Source of the DNA: Aidingimonas lacisalsi
GTDB lineage: Bacteria; Pseudomonadota; Gammaproteobacteria; Pseudomonadales; Halomonadaceae
Direction: 5' to 3'
Length of the DNA: 64,000 nt
Assembly (NCBI RefSeq): GCF_008079445.1
Contig: NZ_VRYH01000005.1
Span: forward strand, 124,001-188,000
The first letter of the stretch is position 1. Every line of letters begins with the position of its first letter. Positions 7,600-42,355 of the stretch are shown piece after piece. Position numbers and translations under genes: made by a program. The notes beneath the pieces are model-generated. The model was not told the origin of the DNA and did no database searches. It saw nothing but the letters and a program-made list of their open reading frames with translations.

Positions 7600-8220
7600 T
7601 CAACCTCCTCCACCGCCACCGTTGGCACCACCGCCTGCGCCGCCGCCACTGGCGCTACCGCCACTGCCACCGTTGGCACCACCACCTGAGCCGCCACCAC
7701 TGGCGCTACCGCCGCCGCCGCCATTGGCACCGCCGCCACTACCCCCGCCACCACTGTTGCCACCGCCACCGCCATTGCCACCCCCACCTGAACCGCCACT
7801 ATTGCCGCCACCGGCACCACCACTGCCTCCTCCGCTACCCCCATTGCCGCCGCCACCAGACCCGCCATTTCCGGTACCCGGTCCAGGCCCGCCGCCTGAC
7901 GAGTTGCCATTGTCGTTGCCGGTATCACCGGGCACAGGACTCCCGGGCACCGTCGATACGCTAACCATGAAAGAGCCGCCACCGCAGCCTCCTCCACCGT
8001 CCAGCCCTCCGGTACCACAGCCACCACCGCCCGCGCCACTGCCTCCTCCCCCACCACCTGCTCCCCCTCCGGCTGCAGGCGCCGGCAGGCGATCATCCAT
8101 GATCTCGGAAAGCTCGTCGTCGGAAACATCGCCGGCATCCCAGGACGAAGACTGTCCCCAAACGGTAGGTGTTCCCAATATCAGCAATGCTGATAACGTT
8201 AATGTTGTCCAGCGTTCCAT
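7600..8220 (-). CDS. Secreted glycine-rich repeat protein
   Basis: The 206-residue product starts with a convincing signal peptide (MERWTTLTLSALLILGTPTVWG) and an ATG preceded by AGAGG. A short acidic segment follows (residues about 24-46), and then almost pure Gly/Ser/Asn/Ala low-complexity sequence runs to the stop. Near the C-terminus the pattern GGSASGGGSGGGANGG recurs, and three Cys-Gly elements occur near residues 68-79. The opposite strand is also open, but it would encode an unlikely polyproline protein without a signal. The protein is probably exported; a flexible matrix, adhesive or surface role is a guess. Length may vary between strains through repeat slippage. Confidence 0.68.
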   Translation of the reverse strand: MERWTTLTLSALLILGTPTVWGQSSSWDAGDVSDDELSEIMDDRLPAPAAGGGAGGGGGGSGAGGGGCGTGGLDGGGGCGGGSFMVSVSTVPGSPVPGDTGNDNGNSSGGGPGPGTGNGGSGGGGNGGSGGGSGGAGGGNSGGSGGGGNGGGGGNSGGGGSGGGANGGGGGSASGGGSGGGANGGSGGSASGGGAGGGANGGGGGG

Positions 8221-38751: not shown

Positions 38752-39525
38752 TCAGTTCCTGATGCCTTTCCCTTTATCCAGCATCCACAGTCCAACGGCG
38801 AAAAACACCACGATAAAGGCCGCGATCGCAGTCAATGCGGCACCTACCGGGATATCCGAAACACCCAGGAAGCCGTAGCGGAATACGTTGACCATATAGA
38901 GAATGGGATTGAGCATCGACACGCCCTGCCAGAATCCCGGCAGCAGATCGATCGAGTAAAACACCCCGCCCAGGTAGGTCAGTGGCGTGAGCACGAAGAT
39001 TGGCACAATCGAGATATCATCGAACTTGTTGGCCACCAGTGCATTGATGAACCCCCCGATGGAGAACAGCGTGGCGGTCATCACCACGACCAGTAGCGTC
39101 AGCAAGGCATGCTCCACCGGCAATCGGGTGAAAAACAACGATACCACAGTGACAATCAAACCGACTCCCAGACCGCGAGCCATCCCACCGGCGACGAAAC
39201 CGGTCAAAATGACCCAGTTGGGCATCGGCGACACCATCATCTCTTCGACACTGCGCTGGAACTTGTTGGAGAAGAACGATGAGGCAACGTTCGAGTAGCT
39301 GTTGGTGATCACCGACATCATGATCAGACCCGGCACGATGTAATCCATGTAATCAAAGCCACTCATTTCGCCGATGCGCGAGCCGATCAAGCTACCGAAA
39401 ATGATGAAATACATCGTCATCGTGATCGATGGCGGAAGCAGCGTCTGAGGCCAGATACGAGTAAACCGACGCACTTCCTTGCCGACCAAGGTCCACAGCG
39501 CGATAACAATCTGCATGGGGTTCAT
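38752..39525 (-). CDS. yadH: ABC-2 type transporter permease, YadH-like
   Basis: The 257-residue protein has six membrane helices and ABC-2 permease features such as LPPSITMTMYFIIFGSLIGSRIG, VPGLIMMSVITNSYSNVASSFFSNKFQRSVEE, and PLTYLGGVFYSIDLLPGFWQ. It pairs with the ATP-binding protein encoded just upstream (ATGA overlap). Together they form a YadGH-type exporter of unknown substrate. The queF gene starts 43 bp downstream. Confidence 0.92.
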   Translation of the reverse strand: MNPMQIVIALWTLVGKEVRRFTRIWPQTLLPPSITMTMYFIIFGSLIGSRIGEMSGFDYMDYIVPGLIMMSVITNSYSNVASSFFSNKFQRSVEEMMVSPMPNWVILTGFVAGGMARGLGVGLIVTVVSLFFTRLPVEHALLTLLVVVMTATLFSIGGFINALVANKFDDISIVPIFVLTPLTYLGGVFYSIDLLPGFWQGVSMLNPILYMVNVFRYGFLGVSDIPVGAALTAIAAFIVVFFAVGLWMLDKGKGIRN

Positions 39526-40520
39526 TGACGCACCTCCGTACCTTCAACCGGCTCGGATTCCTCGTCATCGATACGAGGCCTCGATTCGCTATGCTGGTCG
39601 TTATCATCCTCGACCATCGAGACGAACATTTCTTCCAACCGGTTGGCACGATTACGCATCGACACCACATTCACCCCCTGCTCGCTGAGTGCCGTGAAAA
39701 CGTCATTGAGTCGCTGCCCCCGCTTGACCGAGACCGACAACTGCGATGGCTCCGACAGCGTGACGTCGAAACCGGCGATGGTCGGCACCGTGTCAACGGG
39801 ATGCGCCAGATCGAGCAGGAAGGTTTCCGCATGCAACTGAGCCAACAACTCACGCACGCTGGTGTTCTGAACGATTTCCCCATGGTTGATGATAGCGATG
39901 TTACGGCACAGGCTTTCGGCTTCCTCGAGATAGTGTGTCGTCAGGATGATCGTCGTGCCTTCCTCACGATTGATACGCCGCATGTAGTCCCACATGCTGC
40001 GACGCAACTCGATATCCACACCGGCCGTTGGTTCGTCCAGAATCAGCAGTTTGGGACGATGCATCAGCGCACGCGCAATCATCAAGCGACGCTTCATGCC
40101 CCCGGAAAGCATACGCGCACTTCCCTTGCGTTTGTCCCACAGTCCCAGGTCCTTGAGCAGCCGTTCAGCACGAGGCTTGGCTTCGCGTAGCGACATGCCG
40201 TAGTAACCTGCCTGGGAATGGATGATGTCCTCAACCTTTTCGAACTGATTGAAATTGAATTCCTGGGGAACCACACCGATATGGTACTTGGCACGTGCAA
40301 AATCCTCATCGATATCGATACCGAAGACCGATACCTCGCCTGCCGTCTTCTGCACTAGCGAACATACCACGCCCAGAGTGGTCGACTTGCCGGCGCCATT
40401 GGGGCCCAGCAACGCAAAGAAATCGCCTTCAGCGACATTGAGGTCGATGCCTTTCAAGGCATGAAAACCATTGCCGTAGACTTTGGTCAGCCCACGAATG
40501 GATAGCGCCGGTTCGGCCAT
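39522..40520 (-). CDS. yadG: ABC transporter ATP-binding protein, YadG-like
   Basis: The 332-residue protein has Walker A GPNGAGKST, an LSGGMKRR signature, Walker B KLLILDEPTAGVD and the H-loop ILTTHYLEEAE. The last 30 or so residues form an acidic extension (DDNDQHSESRPRIDDEESEP) not expected in E. coli YadG. The ATG at 40520 has GAGG upstream; a TTG one codon earlier is unlikely. It is co-translated with the YadH-like permease. Confidence 0.93.
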   Translation of the reverse strand: MAEPALSIRGLTKVYGNGFHALKGIDLNVAEGDFFALLGPNGAGKSTTLGVVCSLVQKTAGEVSVFGIDIDEDFARAKYHIGVVPQEFNFNQFEKVEDIIHSQAGYYGMSLREAKPRAERLLKDLGLWDKRKGSARMLSGGMKRRLMIARALMHRPKLLILDEPTAGVDIELRRSMWDYMRRINREEGTTIILTTHYLEEAESLCRNIAIINHGEIVQNTSVRELLAQLHAETFLLDLAHPVDTVPTIAGFDVTLSEPSQLSVSVKRGQRLNDVFTALSEQGVNVVSMRNRANRLEEMFVSMVEDDNDQHSESRPRIDDEESEPVEGTEVRQ

Positions 40521-40690
40521 CAAGAACCTCTATCATTCCGCGAATAAAACAATTAGGTCACTAAGGATGCGGGCAGAATTCCAGAAATCAATGCCCTTCT
40601 GGTTCCGTCATCGAAAGCGTCACACCTGAACGCACGACAGCGTATCACCTGGCAACGAAAAAGACGGCAAGCAAGATAGGAAATAACATC

Positions 40691-41015
40691 GGGAACGTGA
40701 GTCGATCGGGAGGCGAACCACCGAGCTGACGCACCGGATCGCGACCCTCACCTTGACTAACGTTGAGTGAAAATTGGAGCGGGAAATGTGATTCGACCGG
40801 GCTGGCGTTCCAGCTCGCGACCCTCACCTGTCCAACTCGACCTTCGCAAAGCATAGCTGGAGTAGGAACGTGATACGACCGGGCTGGCGCACCAGCTCGC
40901 GACCCTCACTTGTCCAACTCAACCTTCGCAAAGCATAGCTGGAGCGGGAAACGAGATACGACCGGGCTGGCGCACCAGATCGCGACCCTCACCTTGACTA
41001 ACGTTGAGTGAAAAT
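40691..41015 (-). repeat. Left array of tRNA-Gly 3'-end repeats
   Basis: Downstream of the first tRNA-Gly (minus strand) lie three to four units of about 76-83 bp. Unit boundaries at the tGGAGC motif fall near 40775, 40857 and 40939, and a more degenerate unit extends toward 40691. Each unit contains the tRNA-Gly-like ends CTCGCGACCCTC and GGAGCGGGAA as read on the plus strand. Between them is an inserted GACCGGGCTGGCGCACCAG instead of the normal T-arm. Two linker types occur: one containing CTTCGCAAAGCATAGC and one containing CTTGACTAACGTTGAGTG. Confidence 0.85.
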
Positions 41016-41090
41016 TGGAGCGGGAAACGAGATTCGAACTCGCGACCCTCGCCTTGGCAAGGCGATGCTCTACCACTGAGCTATTCCCGC
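41016..41090 (-). tRNA. tRNA-Gly (GCC), copy 1
   Basis: The 75-nt minus-strand cloverleaf has acceptor GCGGGAA/TTCCCGC, TAGCTCAGTGGTAGAGC in the D-arm, TTCGAATC in the T-loop and an encoded CCA. The anticodon loop TTGCCAA gives GCC. It follows tRNA-Glu by 28 bp and is itself followed by the left repeat array. Confidence 0.97.
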
Positions 41091-41118
41091 GATCTGACCA
41101 TGCAAGAGATGTAACGGA

Positions 41119-41194
41119 TGGCGTCCCATAGGGGGTTCGAACCCCTGTTACCGCCGTGAAAGGGCGGTGTCCTGGACCACTAGACGAATGGGAC
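41119..41194 (-). tRNA. tRNA-Glu (TTC), copy 1
   Basis: The 76-nt minus-strand sequence starts GTCCCATTCGTCTAGTGG, ends CCCTATGGGACGCCA and has an anticodon loop CTTTCAC giving TTC. It is identical in the readable region to the second copy at 41662-41737. It lies 28 bp upstream of tRNA-Gly copy 1. Confidence 0.97.
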
Positions 41195-41205
41195 GCAGCC
41201 AAGTT

Positions 41206-41556
41206 CCGATATCTGGCGCGGTAACATGATTCGATTGGGTGTCGATTCACCGGACTGGCGTACCAGTTCGCAACCTTCACCTTTCCAACTCAACCTTCGC
41301 AAAGCATAGCTGGAGCAGGAACGTGATACGACCGGGCTGGCGCACCAGCTCGCGACCCTCACTTGTCCAACTCAACCTTCGCAAAGCATAGCTGGAGCGG
41401 GAACGTGATACGACCGGGCTGGCGCACCAGCTCGCGACCCTCACTCGTCCAACTCAACCTTCGCAAAGCATAGCTGGAGCGGGAACGTGATACGACCGGG
41501 CTGGCGCACCAGCTCGCGACCCTCACTTGTCCAACTCGGCCTTCGCAAAGCATAGC
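41206..41556 (-). repeat. Right array of 82-bp tRNA-Gly 3'-end repeats
   Basis: Three full 82-bp units lie at 41308-41389, 41390-41471 and 41472-41553. They differ from one another at only two or three positions. A diverged unit precedes them near 41206-41307. The array abuts the 3' end of tRNA-Gly copy 2, whose last 13 bases match the start of each unit. Every unit carries a small inverted repeat CTGGCGCACCAG in place of the tRNA T-arm. Units are contiguous with no unique spacers, so this is not a CRISPR. Confidence 0.92.
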
Positions 41557-41631
41557 TGGAGCGGGAAACGAGATTCGAACTCGCGACCCTCGCCTTGGCA
41601 AGGCGATGCTCTACCACTGAGCTATTCCCGC
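41557..41631 (-). tRNA. tRNA-Gly (GCC), copy 2
   Basis: This 75-nt gene is the same as copy 1 at 41016-41090 in the readable sequence, with anticodon GCC and encoded CCA. It is followed on the minus strand by the right 82-bp repeat array. The two Gly copies lie 541 bp apart, which fits a tandem duplication of the Glu-Gly-repeat block. Confidence 0.97.
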
Positions 41632-41661
41632 ATGAACCACTTACTGCACCTCGGACTCGAT

Positions 41662-41737
41662 TGGCGTCCCATAGGGGGTTCGAACCCCTGTTACCGCCGT
41701 GAAAGGGCGGTGTCCTGGACCACTAGACGAATGGGAC
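41662..41737 (-). tRNA. tRNA-Glu (TTC), copy 2
   Basis: The 76-nt tRNA-Glu has anticodon TTC and an encoded CCA. It is the first tRNA of the minus-strand cluster Glu-Gly-repeats-Glu-Gly-repeats. It lies 30 bp upstream of tRNA-Gly copy 2. The promoter is expected just upstream, at about 41740-41830, but I could not fix it with confidence. Confidence 0.97.
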
Positions 41738-41953
41738 GCAACACCTCGCGTTCGAGATGGCGCGTATATTACTGAGCCCCCTGTGGGCTGTCAAGCAACT
41801 ACAACAGTGAGATATTACGTGATAACGAGCTACGCTGATTAATGCAACGAGGGGTGGAAATCGGACCGTCACTCGTTGTTTTATGGGCAGTAATGGCGCA
41901 GCCAACCGCCTATGCGTCAGTTATTTCGTTCGTCCGTAGCCAGAGGGGCCGTC

Positions 41954-42355
41954 ATGCGCAAGAAGATTGAAAAGAGCGAGGCCGAGTGGCGCCATCAACT
42001 CACGCCGGAACAATATCGGGTCACGCGCGAGCAAGGCACCGAACCGCCTTTCAGTGGCGACTTCCAAGTCAGCAAGAAACAGGGAATCTATCACTGTATC
42101 TGCTGTCATGCGCCATTATTCGAGAACGAACACAAATTCGATGCCGGCTGCGGCTGGCCCAGTTTCGATCGTCCCTTGGGGCGTGGATCAATCGAAGAGC
42201 ATTCTGACGACTCCATGGGCATGCAACGCACGGAAGTCGTTTGCGCCCACTGCGACGCCCATCTAGGGCATGTCTTTCCTGATGGCCCACCCGATACGAC
42301 CGGGCTGCGCTATTGCATCAACTCCGTGGCCATTGCATTCCATCCCGACGAATGA
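41954..42355 (+). CDS. msrB: Peptide-methionine (R)-S-oxide reductase MsrB
   Basis: The 133-residue protein starts at the ATG at 41954 with AGAGGGG upstream. It has two zinc-binding CxxC pairs (CICC and CAHC), the [11 protein letters not shown] motif, [20 protein letters not shown] with the catalytic cysteine, and the usual length. It reduces methionine-R-sulfoxide in proteins using thioredoxin. There is no signal peptide, so it is cytoplasmic. It is monocistronic, about 90 bp before the RbgA-like gene. Confidence 0.95.

Follow-up and report, generated by a model that had tools for sequence, protein, structure and literature searches.

Tandem units derived from tRNA-Gly and interrupted by a 16-nt hairpin module in Aidingimonas lacisalsi and its relatives

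Introduction

Why would a bacterium keep strings of partial transfer RNA (tRNA) copies directly behind its tRNA genes? The question is raised by a 64,000-nucleotide (nt) stretch of the genome of the salt-loving bacterium Aidingimonas lacisalsi (contig NZ_VRYH01000005.1, positions 124,001 to 188,000; the whole stretch is called the window below), where the minus strand carries, in this order, tRNA-Glu, tRNA-Gly, a repeat array, tRNA-Glu, tRNA-Gly, a second array and then a pair of ATP-binding cassette (ABC) transporter genes. Comparable repeats at E. coli tyrT are, to our knowledge, regarded as an oddity of unknown use. Comparison of the arrays with their counterparts in related genomes points to units that derive from tRNA-Gly and carry a small hairpin in the T-loop, and we propose, at a probability of roughly 0.4, that this hairpin acts as a lock on transcribed tRNA fragments.

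Results

The units are tRNA-Gly 3' parts with an insert in the T-loop

ARAGORN placed two tRNA-Glu and two tRNA-Gly(GCC) genes on the minus strand, the copies of each being identical, and Tandem Repeats Finder (TRF) returned a period of 82 for both arrays (41249-41567, 3.9 copies, 94% matches; 40775-40994, 2.7 copies, 89% matches). The tandem tRNA-Glu/tRNA-Gly duplication, with minus-strand repeats behind each tRNA-Gly, that an initial annotation had read from the letters of the window is thus borne out. Its further statement that the right-hand units are exactly 82 bp long and two or three bases apart also holds for U1, U2 and U3 (3, 2 and 3 pairwise differences), with its unit starts a few bases out of phase. 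Units of the second array measure 76, 82 and 83 bp, and a decayed unit closes each array. The 23-mer GAGCTGGTGCGCCAGCCCGGTCG occurs six times in the window at up to three mismatches and in none of 100 shuffles.

Each unit opens with a leader, which mostly puts 20-40 nt between the end of the tRNA and the core, and continues with tRNA-Gly sequence from approximately the anticodon loop through CCA, in keeping with the claim that the ends of the tRNA-Gly 3' half are retained. A 16-nt module, TGGNNCGCCAGCCCGG, sits between T-stem position 53 and the TCG of the T-loop, with T54 changed to C. The earlier reading was correct in seeing a hairpin in the T-arm and incorrect in having it replace the T-arm: both T-stem strands are kept, and the 16 nt are inserted ahead of the T-loop TCG. 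Among relatives the leaders vary widely, module and tail are conserved, and some units carry two successive modules at one junction. A portable 16-nt hairpin module that interrupts the T-loop of each unit is supported.

The arrays recur throughout the Halomonadaceae and beyond

A covariance model of the unit, R1, was used at E ≤ 1e-9, below the value obtained for A. lacisalsi tRNA-Gly itself (6.6e-9). At this threshold 175 of 275 Halomonadaceae genomes, from 14 of 24 genera, match, eight of the 175 being less sure with best matches between 1e-10 and 1e-9; in a 25-genome sample drawn from the 24 genera, 11 match. A BLAST count of 183/275 at E ≤ 0.01 is looser and is not our main figure, and a class-wide R1 count of 308/369 genomes was discarded because those listed matches that fall outside the family cover 39 nt and have scores like that of tRNA-Gly. 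The check among Halomonadaceae that the initial annotation had proposed therefore finds conservation well beyond the strain. A duplication artefact local to the strain, for which the near identity of the 82-bp units is the sole point, is refuted by this spread, by the occurrence in other families and by the coupled base changes described below, and retains almost no probability.

Setting the score at 30 bits or more yielded 206 units in 119 loci, of which 204 have a tRNA-Gly(GCC) on their own strand no more than 800 bp upstream; the remaining two lie at the edge of a stretch. Next after these 204 units comes tRNA-Glu (110) or tRNA-Cys (40), or the unit is terminal (54), so that 150 have a tRNA-Glu or tRNA-Cys within 600 bp downstream. 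Relatives have a Gly-Cys-Leu tRNA operon, an order that we take to be that of E. coli glyW-cysT-leuZ. Not one of the 70 tRNAs at 28 tRNA-Gly loci from other genomes in the class is accompanied by a stray copy of its 3' end within 600 bp, so the arrays are not background.

Outside the Halomonadaceae, tRNA-linked units are present in no fewer than 12 of 372 genomes from the order, one assignment resting on a tRNA tail at the end of a contig. Named examples come from Alcanivorax, Alloalcanivorax, Oceanobacter, Thalassolituus, Saccharospirillum and Aliikangiella. The same plan is found behind tRNA-Gly(CCC) in Chromohalobacter and behind tRNA-Asp(GTC) in Saccharospirillum, with those tRNAs' own 3' ends, some of the Saccharospirillum units ending in the Asp 3' end. 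Aliikangiella marina (L100) has seven units behind tRNA-Gly, the five pattern matches among them being spaced exactly 107 bp apart, and another locus (L124) has four at 98-100-bp steps. Four loci of Saccharospirillum type (L131, L132, L191 and L210) present a mirror image: upstream of tRNA-Gly stands a single unit or a tandem pair, each some 105-115 bp long as judged by eye, in which the tRNA-Gly 5' half is intact, the anticodon loop is changed (TTGACCGA, TTGATCGA) and inserts of other kinds are present. At one Saccharospirillum-type locus a tRNA-Gly pseudogene of nearly full length carries the module and an altered 3' end.

As the units carry a tRNA 3' end and some begin at the anticodon loop, they might be relics or decoys of attachment sites for integrative elements that use the tRNA-Gly 3' end. 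We consider this very improbable, however: no unit match was obtained among phage records, the one match among plasmid records is a 1.8-Mb Halomonas replicon, and no integrase is found among the six neighbouring proteins of the window, the part of the data in which neighbours were scanned.

Coupled base changes support a specific fold of the module

The alignments support a fold of the module in which a 4-bp stem is joined by pairing of the loop YG with a downstream CR and by one further pair. Among 116 distinct units, pairing is 100% at 23-32 and 24-31, with 17 double changes at 23-32, and 97.4% at 29-33. For the structure as a whole, three of five measures were reached by none of 500 shuffles, and the other two were not clearly above shuffles (pairs with a double change, 30/500; further pair types, 226/500).

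We then took 171 distinct cores from loci not chosen by module pattern. Watson-Crick pairing is seen at 18-27 in 170/171, at 20-25 in 169/170 plus one wobble, at 23-32 in 169/171 (CG 152, TA 15, GC 2) and at 29-33 in 165/170 plus two wobbles, the pairs 23-32 and 29-33 both being absent from the covariance model. The three main pairs (18-27, 23-32 and 29-33) occur in six combinations, each seen at least three times, and thus do not represent one inherited block. Changes were counted along the 168 edges of a minimum spanning tree, which is not a phylogeny. Double and single changes number 19 and 1 at 18-27, 18 and 0 at 23-32, and 40 and 6 at 29-33, in sum 77 double versus 7 single, with a further 5 and 1 at 20-25; ten unpaired control column pairs gave 3-9 double versus 30-54 single changes. 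The T-stem pair 13-43, initially intended as a control, gave 9 double and 23 single changes and was left out of the ten. Of the doubles, 22 out of 40 for pair 29-33 and 11 out of 18 for pair 23-32 lie on edges where the other three pairs stay the same. The coupled changes at three pairs, in the hairpin and downstream of it, therefore indicate that a specific fold is constrained, and with 23-32 and 24-31 crossing the stem it would be pseudoknot-like. An RNA-strand signature (G-U against A-C pairs), favoured by a small first count, was dropped when a larger set gave 5 versus 5 within the module; 53 G-U cells at 16-29 were excluded from that count, as column 29 pairs with 33 too.

Units follow the local tRNA allele while the module behaves as a separate piece

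In 177 of 187 cases the T-stem 3' strand of the unit agrees with the local tRNA's allele (G 93/99, C 66/68, T 18/20), and the 5' strand does so in 148 of 187; at loci with a GGGAG tRNA the 5' strand has G in 34/68, T in 33/68 and C in 1/68. This tracking shows that the units evolve in concert with the tRNA gene, and more strongly so on their 3' side. An origin by partial tandem duplication of tRNA-Gly followed by concerted evolution is supported by these patterns: duplication of the tRNA-Gly 3' part plus trailer would create the units, recombination over the common 3' end would multiply and delete them, and gene conversion would keep them similar to the local tRNA.

One genome (G200) offers a direct filled/empty pair, with one module-bearing unit and ten exact 72-bp units without the module that have a leader in common with it. 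The ten stand in tandem on the minus strand at 1130-1850 of locus L305 (G200:C1) and span tRNA-Gly from about position 24 to CCA, with no hairpin. One possible meaning of this array is that the insert damps recombination of the units with the tRNA. In G091 a copy lacking the hairpin was discarded, as it adjoins a run of N.

Filled and empty sites occur as well in a dispersed repeat with terminal inverted repeats, resembling a miniature inverted-repeat transposable element (MITE), in G132 and G175, where the 16-nt module is present or absent and again stands directly before TCG: empty sites read GGTGCTCGGAATCC and filled sites GGTGC[16 nt]TCGGAATCC. G132 gave at least 40 matches (92 candidates, 40 scored). 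Thirty copies were aligned, one of them from G981, and proved to be 16 filled and 14 empty. The repeat ends in GGGAAACACTGAATAAAT and ATTTATTCAGCGTTTCC and was read at loci L197-L203, L217-L246 and L336-L346. Other relatives carry dispersed module copies, two of 20 places read being tRNA units; in the A. lacisalsi genome no MITE-like module copy was seen.

These sites raise the main rival to a role in the tRNA fragment, which we rank second and consider possible although on balance unlikely: that the module is a tiny mobile hairpin with a logic like that of repetitive extragenic palindromic (REP) elements, and enters T-loop-like sequence, directly 5' of TCG, as a folded single strand of DNA; the tRNA units would then be no more than landing sites and tandem passengers, and mobilisation would require the coupled pairs. 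The coexistence of filled and empty sites in MITE-like repeats and in tRNA units, the serial modules at one junction, the arrival of the module on separate occasions in copies of Gly(GCC), Gly(CCC) and Asp, and the equal rarity of G-U and A-C pairs in the module, which does not favour RNA over DNA, would all fit. As a precedent, PMC8266576 states that IS200/IS605 cleavage sites are chosen via complementarity with a guide beside the hairpin; it also gives a Marinomonas REP (Mb) with a 5-bp stem and 4-nt loop, and the present hairpin is of similar size and likewise linked to a short flanking motif. However, the definition in PMC3733652 places a GTAG or CGTC motif beside the palindrome, and here there is neither tag; nor are there many dispersed intergenic copies as in REP/REPtron systems, the module being bound to tRNA units and MITE-like repeats. 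In A. lacisalsi the module patterns that were searched occur at six places, all in the arrays, a confinement that mobility leaves unexplained, and a search of that genome for the Y1 transposase (PF01797) gave no match. The dispersed copies read in relatives sit, by eye, in MITE-like or palindrome-rich repeats and are not free insertions, and the 16 filled MITE-like copies pair more loosely, five lacking 29-33 and one lacking 24-31.

The arrays are likely co-transcribed with the tRNAs

The features of the locus are given in Table 1. A promoter-like site lies about 28 bp ahead of the first tRNA, weak evidence alone with one site found against 0.6 expected from shuffles. A terminator scan of the minus strand found no site within the arrays or between them and the ABC transporter ATPase gene, its two sites both lying inside that gene. 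The promoter-like site and the lack of a terminator in the arrays make it likely that the arrays are co-transcribed with the tRNAs, in transcripts that would carry a series of tRNA-like 3' ends, and the further tRNA that lies downstream of 150 of 204 units in relatives points the same way. A scan ahead of the units of relatives (0/204) was not used, for it required perfect stems and missed terminators seen by eye (e.g., L022 and L122). A third tRNA-Gly(GCC) of A. lacisalsi lies on contig C25, and all six unit matches of the genome lie on C23.

Table 1 Features of the tRNA/array locus in the A. lacisalsi window
Feature	Position	Strand	Basis
Sigma-70-like promoter TTGACA-17-TAATAT for the tRNA/array unit	41766..41794	-	10/12 matches
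tRNA-Glu(TTC) copy 1	41662..41737	-	ARAGORN
tRNA-Gly(GCC) copy 1, 3' part = template of units	41557..41631	-	ARAGORN
Unit U1, 82 bp; module 41496-41511	41475..41556	-	TRF + sequence comparison
Unit U2, 82 bp; module 41414-41429	41393..41474	-	TRF + sequence comparison
Unit U3, 82 bp; module 41332-41347	41311..41392	-	TRF + sequence comparison
Decayed unit U4 and spacer up to next tRNA-Glu	41195..41310	-	
tRNA-Glu(TTC) copy 2	41119..41194	-	ARAGORN
tRNA-Gly(GCC) copy 2	41016..41090	-	ARAGORN
Unit U5, 76 bp, different leader; module 40962-40977	40940..41015	-	
Unit U6, 82 bp; module 40879-40894	40858..40939	-	
Unit U7, 83 bp; module 40797-40812	40775..40857	-	
Decayed unit U8, leader as in U5	40690..40774	-	
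ABC transporter ATPase gene, next downstream	39522..40523	-	

Transcribed units might yield a processed trans-acting RNA, a sponge or decoy similar to the E. coli leuZ 3' external transcribed spacer (3'ETS) or RtT RNA. The operon-internal position, the conserved fold and the conserved CCA end would suit such an RNA, and tRNA trailers that act as sponges of small RNAs are known, the leuZ 3'ETS among them (PMC5222698, in the portion available to us). Like that spacer, the units lie within a tRNA transcript behind a tRNA; unlike it, in that it is not described as a tRNA copy in this portion, they are tRNA-derived and repeated. The leaders, however, are by eye not conserved between genera, and an acceptor-like stem between leader and 3' tail was rejected, pairing there being no better than in shuffles (mean z +0.27 over 111 units), and we regard this function as quite improbable.

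Elsewhere in the window, an imperfect 51-bp tandem repeat of CCACCGCCACC type at 7610-7873 may encode a glycine-rich repeat on the minus strand.

The E. coli RtT repeats prove to share the plan

At E. coli K-12 tyrT-tyrV (L360), the left half of the tRNA-Tyr T-arm, AGGTTCGA, is present in each of the four distal units, exactly in three and with one base off in the fourth. A 67-nt insert (measured in three) follows, and then the right half of the T-loop, the acceptor strand and CCA. The RtT/tpr repeats and the A. lacisalsi arrays thus prove to share one plan, in which tandem units distal to a tRNA bear its 3' end with CCA and a T-arm split by a T-loop insert. They differ in tRNA and insert: E. 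coli has tRNA-Tyr, an unrelated, longer insert and 178-bp steps behind tyrV, and an Rfam scan of 40300-42100 of the window gave no RtT match up to E 1, just tRNA and weak tRNA-like matches. The likeness to the tyrT distal repeats that the initial annotation had pointed out, with a different sequence and tRNA, is hence right and closer than claimed: besides the 19 bp of tRNA 3' end that it named, the E. coli repeats hold the left half of the T-arm and the T-loop insert. The RtT insert matches 4621 of 5426 E. coli genomes at a median of two places, and the five matches listed are all annotated as RtT. The titles and abstracts of the open PMC papers listed contain no description of the units or of a T-loop insert in RtT.

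Discussion

The observation from which we started is confirmed, and its interpretation is partly supported. The explanation that we rank best, at a probability of about 0.42, is that tRNA-Gly-derived units carry the module as a T-loop lock that would disarm transcribed fragments. The units would be transcribed along with the tRNAs, and the module would be a self-folding insert that keeps the fragment, with its acceptor 3' strand and CCA, from engaging a D-loop or 5' half and hence from competing with tRNA-Gly. This role is ranked first because the insert stands in the T-loop of unrelated families and its fold is kept while the tRNA rewrites the flanks.

Several observations weigh against such a role. 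On the level of the fold, whole units taken as single strands, the check that the initial annotation had called for, have no clear folding advantage over shuffles (z +0.63 to -1.51, eight units); the 3 changes of pair 24-31 along the 168 edges are all single; the T-stem is kept less well than the module (Watson-Crick at 13-43 in 125/170 and at 15-41 in 138/171); and the pseudoknot geometry would be tight, with a third loop of 1-2 nt, so that the coupling could reflect alternative contacts or contacts bound by protein. With respect to distribution, the ten hairpin-less units of G200 directly behind tRNA-Gly indicate that a lock is not always required, the module also occurs in MITE-like repeats without a tRNA, the third tRNA-Gly of A. 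lacisalsi is without any unit, 100 of the 275 Halomonadaceae genomes have no R1 match, and some units, mostly outside this family, lie by eye after a terminator.

A broader and unlikely version would combine both ideas: a 16-nt self-folding element inserts site-specifically at T-loop-like sequence and is then selected as a lock, with locked fragments being a general phenomenon of tRNA operons that had separate origins in the Halomonadaceae with their relatives (Gly, Asp) and in E. coli (RtT).

Whatever the use of such repeats, a second, unrelated and far more varied family built on the RtT plan, with a tRNA 3' part, a T-loop insert and CCA, makes the question testable, and the resources for doing so are at hand in the natural filled and empty sites, the abundance of alleles and a fold deduced from the coupled changes. 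Should the fold serve mobility, few mobile DNA modules known to us would be as small.
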